DNA of 49,372 nucleotides from Actinomycetota bacterium. Lineage in GTDB: Bacteria; Actinomycetota; Acidimicrobiia; Acidimicrobiales; CADCSY01. The notes under the pieces are model-generated. The model worked only from the letters and a program-made list of their open reading frames with translations. It made no database searches and was not told the origin of the DNA. The position numbers and the translations under genes are program-made. This document shows, in pieces, positions 10,423-12,421 of the stretch. The stretch covers positions 1-49,372 of the forward strand of contig SIRW01000114.1 in assembly GCA_004366205.1 (NCBI GenBank). Reading direction: 5' to 3'. How positions within the stretch are numbered: position 1 is the stretch's first letter; every line of letters starts with the position of its first letter.

Positions 10423-11589
10423 CTAGCCGCGGCCCATGCCGATGCCCTGCGATCGCTGCAGGGCCTTGCCCTCGGTGAGCAGTGCCGGCGCGACCATGAC
10501 CTCGGCCTTCTGGAACTCCTTCACGCTCTCGTAGCCGCAGGTGGCCATGGACGTGCGGAGAGCGCCGAACAGGTTGAGGCGGCCGTCGTTCTCGTGAGCG
10601 GGACCGACGAGGATCTCCTTCAGGGTGCCCCGCACCCCGACCTCGACCCGGGCACCGCGGGGCAGCGTGGGATGGAAGGTGGCCATGCCCCAGTGGAAGC
10701 CCCGGCCCGGTGCCTCGGCCGCGGCTGCGAGGGGCGAGCCCAGCATGACGGCGTCGGCACCGCAGGCGATCGCCTTGGCGACGTCGCCACCGGTGCTCAT
10801 GCCGCCGTCGGCGATGACGTGGCAGTAGACGCCGGTCTCGTCGAGGTGGCGCATGCGGGCGCCCTTGGCGTCCGCGATGGCGGTGGCCTGGGGCACCCCG
10901 ATGCCGAGCACGCCCCGGGAGGTGCAGGCGTTGCCGGGGCCCACGCCGACGAGCACGCCGGCCGCCCCGGTGCGCATGAGGTGCAGCGCCGCCTGGTACG
11001 ACGCGCAGCCCCCGACGATGACCGGGATGGGCAGCTCGCGCACGAACTTCTTGAGGTTGAGGGGCTCGGCGGTCTTCGAGACGTGCTCGGCGGAAACGAC
11101 CGTGCCCTGGATGACGAGCACGTCGAGCTCGGCCTCGAGGATCTGGGCGGCGAAGGCTTCGGTGCGCTGGGGGGTGACCGAGGCGCAGGAGACCACGCCG
11201 GCCTGTTTGATCTCGCGGATGCGCTGGCCGATGAGCTCGGGCTTGATGGGCTCGCTGTAGATCTCCTGCATGCGGCGGGTGGCCTTGTCCGCGGGCAGCT
11301 CGGCCACCTCGTCGAGGAGCGGGTCGGGATCCTCGTAGCGGGTCCAGAGGCCCTCGAGGTTGAGCACGGCGAGGCCGCCCAGGCGCCCGATCTCGGCGGC
11401 GGTGGCGGGGCTCACGACGCCGTCCATGGCCGCGGCCATGAGCGGCAGGTCGAAGCGGAAGGCGTCGATCTCCCAGCTGATGTCGACGTCTTCGGGGTCG
11501 CGGGTCCGCCGGCTGGGGACGATGGCGATGTCGTCGAACCCGTACGCCCGTCGTCCGGACTTGCCGATCCCGATCTCGACCTCAGCCAC
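10423..11589 (-). CDS. guaB3: GuaB3 family IMP dehydrogenase-related protein
   Basis: 388-aa TIM-barrel protein of the IMPDH/GMP reductase superfamily without CBS domains. It opens with KSGRRAYGFDDIAIVPSRRT and has the catalytic loop GVGPGNACTSRGVLGIGVPQ, with Cys as nucleophile, followed by IADGGMSTGGDVAKAIACGAD. The GuaB3 clade is typical of actinomycetes, and whether its members act as IMP dehydrogenase, GMP reductase or something else is not uniformly settled. I use GTG 11589, with GGAGGG about 12 nt upstream; the longer frame lacks homology. Adjacent guaA argues for a role in guanine nucleotide balance. Confidence 0.9.
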   Translation of the reverse strand: MAEVEIGIGKSGRRAYGFDDIAIVPSRRTRDPEDVDISWEIDAFRFDLPLMAAAMDGVVSPATAAEIGRLGGLAVLNLEGLWTRYEDPDPLLDEVAELPADKATRRMQEIYSEPIKPELIGQRIREIKQAGVVSCASVTPQRTEAFAAQILEAELDVLVIQGTVVSAEHVSKTAEPLNLKKFVRELPIPVIVGGCASYQAALHLMRTGAAGVLVGVGPGNACTSRGVLGIGVPQATAIADAKGARMRHLDETGVYCHVIADGGMSTGGDVAKAIACGADAVMLGSPLAAAAEAPGRGFHWGMATFHPTLPRGARVEVGVRGTLKEILVGPAHENDGRLNLFGALRTSMATCGYESVKEFQKAEVMVAPALLTEGKALQRSQGIGMGRG

Positions 11590-11627
11590 GGTCTGCCACC
11601 CTCCGCTCGACACCCGGTGAAGGTCTG

Positions 11628-11633
11628 ATCCTA
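11628..11633 (-). promoter_or_regulatory. Possible -10 box (TAGGAT) for guaB3-guaA
   Basis: TAGGAT on the minus strand, 38 nt before the guaB3 GTG, leaving room for the GGAGGG ribosome site. No convincing -35. Confidence 0.35.
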
Positions 11634-11714
11634 CCGGCTCGCGGCGCCCCCGTGGCGTCCTTCCGGCCGCTGCCCGACCCCACGAGGGGAACGCACCCGA
11701 CCTCCTCACCCCGT

Positions 11715-11827
11715 GCGCGTTTTATCGATTCACCCACCGAATCGGCCACCGAATCACCGACCGAATCGGTCGCCGAATCGCCCACCGAATCGGTTGCCGA
11801 ATCGCCCACAGAATCGATAAAACGCGC
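11715..11827. repeat. 17-bp perfect inverted repeat framing the 12-bp array
   Basis: Left arm 11715-11731 (gcgcgttttatcgattc) is the exact reverse complement of right arm 11811-11827. The outer flanks continue the symmetry loosely (CCCC on one side, GGGG on the other). The arms contain TTTTATCGAT, which is AT-rich against its surroundings. The 79 bp between the arms is the repeat array. Confidence 0.92.
11733..11816. repeat. Seven 12-bp tandem repeats (iteron-like)
   Basis: Seven head-to-tail 12-bp units, consensus (c/g)(c/t)(c/t)(a/g)cc gaatcg. Units 1 and 5 are identical (cccaccgaatcg) and unit 7 differs by one base. The even units begin with g and vary more, giving a hint of 24-bp higher-order periodicity. 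Unit junctions create CCGAATCGG, close to a palindrome, so each could be a protein-binding site. There are no spacers, so it is not a CRISPR. Confidence 0.9.
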
Positions 11828-11945
11828 CGGGGTGGGAATGCGGGGGGTGCGGGGTGCGGCGTGCGGGGTGCGGCGTGCGGGGGTCGGTGGTGGGGTAGCG
11901 GAGTGCGGGGCGGGCCAGGGGCGGGGCCGGGGTGGGGCGGGCCGG
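11828..11945 (+). repeat. G-rich tract with 7-bp/14-bp tandem repeats, G-quadruplex-prone
   Basis: The plus strand is dominated by runs of 3-6 G. Within it a 14-bp unit (gtgcggggtgcggc) occurs twice in tandem at 11847-11860 and 11861-11874, plus a partial third copy. It sits just beyond the 3' end of the 129-aa gene. Confidence 0.7.
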
Positions 11946-12335
11946 TCAGCCCTTGAGGGCCCGGAGCACCTGCTTGGCGATCTGGGCGTTCATCTCGTAC
12001 ACGGCTGCCCGGGTGGCCCCCTCGACCCGCTTGACGAGGCTGCCGCCGGTGAGCTCAGCCAAGGTGTCGAGGCCGGCGATGACGGCCTCTTTCGTCTGGT
12101 CCGTGGCCTTGTACCCCGCGGACGTCAGTGAGCGGAGCAGATCGGAGTCCGCGATGGGCCCAGGGGCGGCAGCGGCCACCACCCGCAACGCCTCCTTGGT
12201 GAGCTCGGCGCCTCGCTCGACGGCCTCGACGGGCGTGAGGTGCGCCTCCTCGGCGCCCTCGAGGCTGGCCAGCCAGCGCTTGACCTTGAGGACGATCTCG
12301 TCGTGCGTCTCGCCCTCGAAGCTCAACGTCGCCAT
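11946..12335 (-). CDS. Hypothetical protein, helical, unknown
   Basis: 129 aa from ATG 12335: MATLSFEGETHDEIVLKVKRW start, then mainly amphipathic helices rich in Ala/Glu/Leu with no membrane segment or signal peptide. Not recognised. The middle (SDLLRSLTSAGYKATDQTKEAVIAGL) could be a small helical DNA- or protein-binding unit, but I cannot name one. The start is supported by TACGCT 6 nt upstream, which would make it leaderless; the longer upstream frame overlaps the microprotein gene and looks non-coding. Confidence 0.7.
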   Translation of the reverse strand: MATLSFEGETHDEIVLKVKRWLASLEGAEEAHLTPVEAVERGAELTKEALRVVAAAAPGPIADSDLLRSLTSAGYKATDQTKEAVIAGLDTLAELTGGSLVKRVEGATRAAVYEMNAQIAKQVLRALKG

Positions 12336-12347: not shown

Positions 12348-12367
12348 GCCCCGCTCGGGGGCTACGC
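12343..12367. repeat. 10-bp perfect inverted repeat between microprotein and 129-aa gene
   Basis: Arms gcgtagcccc (12343-12352) and ggggctacgc (12358-12367) with a 5-base loop. It spans the TAG stop of the 19-aa gene and the -10 box of the next gene. As RNA it would be a strong hairpin without a U-run, so either a weak terminator for the microprotein transcript or an operator. Confidence 0.7.
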
Positions 12368-12421
12368 CAGCAGGATGATCAGGATGATGATGAGGATCAG
12401 GGTGCCGATGCCGATGTACAC
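12362..12421 (-). CDS. 19-aa hydrophobic microprotein
   Basis: GTG-started frame encoding VYIGIGTLILIIILIILLA, a nearly pure Ile/Leu membrane helix. An excellent AGGAG lies 7 nt before the start, better than most neighbours. It sits 33 bp after the epoxide-hydrolase-like gene and 26 bp before the 129-aa gene on the same strand. Function unknown; hydrophobic microproteins of this size often modulate a membrane partner. The composition is hard to explain by chance in very GC-rich DNA because the codons are ATC/CTG/CTC rich, but conservation has to be shown. Confidence 0.6.
   Translation of the reverse strand: MYIGIGTLILIIILIILLA

Follow-up and report, generated by a model that had tools for sequence, protein, structure and literature searches.

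What kind of feature is a tandem array of 12-bp units closed at both ends by a perfect 17-bp inverted repeat, and what is it doing upstream of guaB3? This question is raised by contig SIRW01000114.1 of assembly GCA_004366205.1, from an Actinomycetota bacterium of the order Acidimicrobiales, whose positions 1 to 49,372 (49,372 nucleotides in all) form the stretch analyzed here and are called the window below. The original prediction, made from the letters of the window, described the array and hesitated between a protein-binding site, a regulatory RNA and a small non-autonomous repeat element. Its description was accurate: the window copy measures 113 bp from arm to arm and contains eight in-phase CGAWTC-type cores (arm cores included) with a period of 12 bp, that is, seven intervals or seven units counted from position 11726 (Tandem Repeats Finder score of 126 over the span 11726-11816). 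With a probability of about 0.74, we interpret it as one copy of a dispersed, non-autonomous and probably selfish fold-back element, in which fixed inverted arms surround an expandable array of 12-bp units with a self-complementary core.

This interpretation relies first on the distribution of the element in its own genome (3,443,036 bases, 119 contigs). A BLAST search with the element returned 26 matches, resolved into 14 places on 11 contigs. A two-core pattern matched 123 times, vs. 0 for the backwards control, and since the 14 extracted copies contain exactly 123 two-core matches, no array of this kind was missed. Similarly, the inner 14-mer of the arm, with up to 2 mismatches, was found 20 times in the genome, always within copies of the element, and its control was never found. 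This copy number excludes chance as the origin of the window array. A one-off slippage product, one of the two outcomes by which the original prediction would have been overturned, is likewise not what was observed, as 14 copies occur in the same genome even though the relatives lack the element. Both arms are present in eight copies (the window copy and those at loci L009, L010, L011, L013, L014, L015 and L016), a single arm in four (L012, L017, the first copy of L018, and L019) and none in two (the second copy of L018, inside FabH, and L020). The arm-to-arm length is 113 bp in the window, L009, L010 and L011, 125 bp in L013 and L014, 137 bp in L016 and 161 bp in L015, with 8 to 12 cores in each two-arm copy and a unit spacing of exactly 12 bp in every copy. 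According to gene calls made with a purpose-written codon-usage gene finder, five copies are intergenic (window, L009, L011, L013 and L014), eight of the 14 lie wholly inside predicted genes and a ninth, at L019, lies over a predicted gene start. Copies occur in both orientations relative to genes.

Then, five genic sites were compared with the corresponding genes of relatives, namely FabH, AftD, the LipB-LipA fusion, the Y-family polymerase that we take to be ImuB (L010), and the L020 protein. In FabH, 15 residues are absent in every relative for which the aligned site was read (ten loci given, 6/6); among solved structures, the best match, 8vd9, is without them and the second best, 1ub7, aligns gap-free there. 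AftD carries approximately 77-80 extra residues, absent in each of the seven relatives aligned (of eight given, one was unpaired), in which an RTLG-like sequence is directly followed by an ARAAVG-like sequence; this insert consists of the element and some 20 further residues encoded by a G-rich tail. The repeat in the LipB-LipA linker is missing from 15/15 aligned relatives (16 given, one not extracted), whose native linkers comprise between a few and about 40 residues. At the ImuB site, 4-15 residues are found in the five relatives read (G013, G016, G020, G021 and G024) vs. 53-71 here. As judged from these alignments, the element is an in-frame insertion into unrelated conserved genes, absent from the relatives' FabH, AftD, LipB-LipA and ImuB.

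How such insertions remain compatible with protein synthesis is illustrated by the reading frames of the copies. All 14 have one frame without stops that spans the copy on either strand, and the armed copies read ARFIDS-(xxES)n-IKRA, arms included. The xxES/xxDS frame, on either strand, is the one used in eight of the nine genic copies; the extracytoplasmic function (ECF) sigma factor reads the array as repeated RIGD. Because the unit length is a multiple of three bases and the frame used contains no stop, insertions would be tolerated in protein loops, linkers and tails, giving Ser/Glu/Thr-rich, probably disordered segments. The coding frame through the array that the original prediction had set against its own proposal thus exists and is used in genic copies, but coding is not the primary constraint, because the intergenic copies keep the same core. 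Besides, LipB and LipA lie in one open frame (L016:2287-4179) that is common to both in many relatives; the fusion is apparently ancestral, and the element therefore did not cause it.

The nature of the constraint was addressed by counting variants in the six core and six spacer positions of each unit. Intergenic copies contain 5 variants over 222 core positions vs. 71 over 222 spacer positions, and genic copies in the xxES frame 10/330 vs. 84/330. A core that is near-invariant even in intergenic copies, with variable spacers, points to a constraint acting on the nucleic acid and not on the peptide. Purifying selection on the peptide as the main constraint was rejected, as variants at the third codon position are not in excess in genic copies (42, 24 and 28 variants at codon positions 1, 2 and 3 over 55 units, a count that leaves out the RIGD-frame copy of the sigma factor). 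The 6-bp core CGAWTC is self-complementary except for its central base, hence all units are able to pair with one another, and the predicted hairpins of the eight two-arm copies reach z values of -4.6 to -13.2 against dinucleotide shuffles on both strands. We infer that the nucleic acid is conserved via folding or being bound, and that coding is tolerated rather than selected. One unit position (position 11) differs weakly between genic and intergenic copies.

The arrays also keep traces of their growth. Identical units are found in 23 of 85 pairs at lag 1, 24 of 71 at lag 2 and 7 of 57 at lag 3, and units of one copy resemble each other more than units of different copies do (an equally extreme value in 9 of 2000 permutations). 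From this pattern, which is the one that slippage would give, the units are read as duplicated locally in steps of 12 and 24 bp.

Beyond this genome, the element was not recovered. Among 58 relatives, only G050, from another family of the order, gave a match at E <= 0.001 (E 2.8e-7, weak), with a spacing different from that of the element; this match (L021:1470-1590) is an intergenic-looking CGATTCGGTG array, irregularly spaced, similar in composition and unlike the element. An arm-plus-core pattern produced 11 single matches in a genome contig collection that possibly does not include the records of this genome or its near relatives; they belong to unrelated taxa, none is followed by an array, and their number is close to our own estimate of the chance expectation. 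Viral contigs gave no match to this pattern, and plasmids and phages none to the element. A three-core pattern matched 11 of 395 genomes of the class, this one among them; the arrays of the ten others, with at least one locus read in each, are low-complexity or Glu/Ser-coding-like repeats without the arms of the element and were not counted. Literature searches returned no report of the element, judging by titles and the beginnings of abstracts, and no publication on tandem and inverted repeats together in Acidimicrobiia was found.

Taken as a fold-back element, the family would have spread by copying to new sites, and a trans-acting factor may recognize the arms or the folded core. This is in line with the small non-autonomous repeat element of the original prediction, borne out by 14 dispersed copies, inverted ends and hairpin formation. 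Several observations nevertheless weigh against it. The relatives searched include no congeneric genome, so that movement was not seen and no empty site is available at the DNA level. No direct repeat of the kind left by target-site duplication abuts the arms in seven of the eight two-arm copies, and the only one, CGCG at L010, belongs to the extended palindrome of that copy. A possible mover was also not found: Y1 transposases (PF01797) are absent from this genome and present in 5 of 14 control genomes, a reverse transcriptase was not found in it with a Pfam model (other transposase families were not part of this search), and no other sequence of the genome, insertion sequences (IS) included, carries the arms, all 20 arm matches with up to 2 mismatches lying in copies of the element. 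The two armless copies (FabH and L020) and the four one-arm copies are not explained by ordinary cut-and-paste. Moreover, the arm-to-arm length of each of the eight two-arm copies leaves a remainder of 2 when divided by three, and the frame must therefore be completed by extra end bases or by the tail. Finally, the L020 loop is 7 residues shorter in two of the four relatives compared and longer in the two others.

Three other explanations were weighed. An iteron- or operator-like array, on which a dimeric protein would bind near-palindromic CGAWTCG cores spaced by 12 bp, would account for a near-invariant core between variable spacers in intergenic copies and for the exact spacing found everywhere. 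However, the same conservation is equally expected from unit-unit pairing in the hairpin, and an array of which eight of 14 copies lie inside unrelated genes, two are armless and no common neighbor was seen is unlikely to serve this purpose. The protein-binding array initially proposed keeps a low probability in view of its near-invariant core, but regulation of a neighboring gene is improbable for copies located in frame inside unrelated genes. An element acting as RNA through its long hairpin, whether as a small RNA, an mRNA stabilizer or an attenuator, could be expected from the very strong folds predicted on both strands; yet no Rfam family matches the element at threshold, a scan around the window copy (11560-11980) revealed neither promoter-like nor terminator-like sites, the copies occur in either orientation relative to genes and many of them are genic. 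A structured RNA thus appears very improbable, and the regulatory RNA of the original prediction was not retained.

Independent local minisatellites, i.e., native Glu/Ser-rich linkers grown by slippage without any mobile element, would explain the duplications of 12 and 24 bp evident within copies, as well as the FabH and L020 arrays, which have no arms and occupy loops of variable length. Such an origin is hard to reconcile with the same 17-bp arms at dispersed genic and intergenic sites, with a core that recurs at 14 places here but is lacking in 58 relatives, or with intergenic copies that have no protein to start from, and is considered quite unlikely. For the armed copies, the shared arms at unrelated sites already refute it, the two armless copies being excepted.

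The fold-back element can be compared with known repeat families. Rickettsia palindromic elements (RPE) are about 105-150 bp long, with inverted ends and a long hairpin; they occur as intergenic and genic copies, with in-frame fusion to unrelated conserved genes, and target-site duplication is not established for them (PMC2229807, PMC10969869, PMC2996958). The present element resembles them in size, inverted ends, hairpin, genic and intergenic sites and in-frame fusion, a resemblance of features and not of compared sequences, but it differs by an interior in which 12-bp units with a self-complementary core are repeated in tandem and in variable number, by the same peptide style on both strands and by a host that is not a Rickettsia. 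In-frame coding palindromes are described from Rickettsia, Wolbachia and one archaeon, Methanocaldococcus jannaschii (PMC2996958, PMC2229807). The BOX elements (boxA-boxBn-boxC) of Streptococcus pneumoniae combine fixed end modules, a variable tandem interior and a stem-loop; their length varies via gain and loss of repeats, and both strands of some of them contain open frames (PMC3049150). Fixed ends around variable tandem modules are shared with the present element, a likeness of plan and not of compared sequences, whereas its 12-bp interior unit, its mostly genic and in-frame copies and its simple inverted-repeat ends are not. Short, non-autonomous, multicopy and bounded by inverted ends, it is also reminiscent of miniature inverted-repeat transposable elements (MITEs) and repetitive extragenic palindromic (REP) elements; unlike MITEs it has neither a target-site duplication nor an IS sharing its ends, and unlike REP elements it is found in a genome where the Y1 transposase (REP-associated tyrosine transposase, RAYT) was not found. 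Palindromic amphipathic repeat coding elements (PARCELs) are tandem coding repeats whose DNA has dyad symmetry (PMC2996958), with a 75-nt/25-residue unit instead of 12 nt/4 residues, and the present element occurs inside named enzymes and between genes. Iteron arrays differ from it by their replication-initiator or origin setting, as its 14 copies are dispersed, eight of them inside predicted genes with other functions.

Hence, the best reading likens the element to RPE for the way it inserts in frame into genes, and to BOX elements for its expandable tandem array. There is about an even chance that it represents an independently evolved class of coding palindromes outside Rickettsia, with interchangeable 12-bp modules able to fold in any register, in-frame growth and shrinkage, the same type of linker from either strand, and spread without target-site duplication. 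To our knowledge, the movement mechanism of in-frame coding palindromes is unsolved. A family in which the core is kept at the nucleic-acid level and yet one frame is readable on both strands constitutes a clean system, and opens the question of whether coding palindromes are shaped for tolerance inside proteins. It also illustrates how conserved enzymes, e.g., FabH or the LipB-LipA fusion, can acquire new linkers, and because its interior is built of 12-bp modules, changes in copy number can be tested directly by comparing strains.

The window copy sits between guaB3, whose predicted start is 125 bp from the left arm, and a gene of 129 amino acids (aa), both on the minus strand (Table 1). The presence of guaB3, and of AftD elsewhere in the genome, is suggestive of an actinobacterial host. 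Within 2.5 kb of the window copy, the part of the window covered by this check, none of the predicted genes was recognized as a transposase. Outside the arms, CACCCCG pairs with CGGGGTG past a one-base bulge, so that the inverted repeat is longer than first reported.

Table 1. Features of the window copy and genes hosting the genic copies (positions refer to the window)
Feature	Position	Strand	Remark
Outer left extension CACCCCG	11707-11713	+	Within the C-rich left flank seen at two-arm copies
Left arm GCGCGTTTTATCGATTC	11715-11731	+	17 bp, perfect inverted repeat
Interior of the 12-bp-unit array	11732-11810	+	Cores CGATTC/CGAATC, final core AGAATC
Right arm GAATCGATAAAACGCGC	11811-11827	+	Exact reverse complement of the left arm
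Outer right extension CGGGGTG	11828-11834	+	Inverted-repeat partner of CACCCCG
G-rich low-complexity right flank	11828-11945	+	Repeats of the 7-mer GGGGTGC; G-quadruplex motif at start
guaB3 (GuaB3 family IMP dehydrogenase-related protein)	10423-11589	-	TIGR01304, E 7e-170
129-aa gene, upstream gene	11946-12335	-	No Pfam family; 118 bp between its end and the right arm
L010			ImuB-like Y-family polymerase, Pfam IMS
L012			Alpha/beta hydrolase, C-terminus
L015			AftD
L016			LipB-LipA fusion
L017			Small exported protein
L018, first copy			ECF sigma factor, linker
L018, second copy			FabH
L019			Predicted start of an RNA 2',3'-cyclic phosphodiesterase-like gene
L020			Presumably homogentisate-dioxygenase-like protein; no Pfam or NCBIfam name

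The flanks of the eight two-arm copies share a compositional bias, the right 50 nt being G-rich (percentile 0.996-0.999 of background) and the left 50 nt C-rich (percentile 0 to 0.12) in all of them. The G-rich tail is partly within the insert at AftD and apparently also at LipB-LipA, and, as in AftD, the G-rich right flank of the window copy may belong to the inserted unit. A G-quadruplex motif occurs in four of the eight right flanks vs. 1.6% of background windows; a G-quadruplex tail as a defining part of the element was set aside, as composition alone may explain the frequency of the motif. Pairing between the flanks of a given copy, which would extend its hairpin, was not clearly better for own pairs (-29.4) than for swapped pairs (-27.8, sd 4.8); the C-rich and G-rich flanks are therefore treated as shared composition and not as co-evolved stems. 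In the window, positions 11844-11910 hold approximately 9.6 copies of the 7-mer GGGGTGC, forming a G-rich low-complexity block that separates the element from the gene that follows. Immediately upstream of the 129-aa gene, a frame of 19 codons with a GTG start (12362-12421, minus strand) would encode a very hydrophobic peptide, VYIGIGTLILIIILIILLA as translated by eye.

Two host genes of the element show features of their own. At L017 (2364-2987, minus strand; contig C51 of G000), the exported protein is thioredoxin-like, with the element located in its N-terminal linker, and an in-frame TGA stands at the first cysteine position of the motif (WSPY-TGA-TTCNREAPG), after which the sequence continues in a normal-looking way; this is likely a selenoprotein or a recent nonsense mutation. 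At L020, the putative homogentisate-dioxygenase-like gene runs into a sequence of about 120-130 bp, preceded by CTAG, which is shared by three contig ends, namely the end of L020 and the starts of the G000 contigs C40 and C97 (L089 and L090). It probably corresponds to an unassembled multicopy insertion sequence interrupting this gene.
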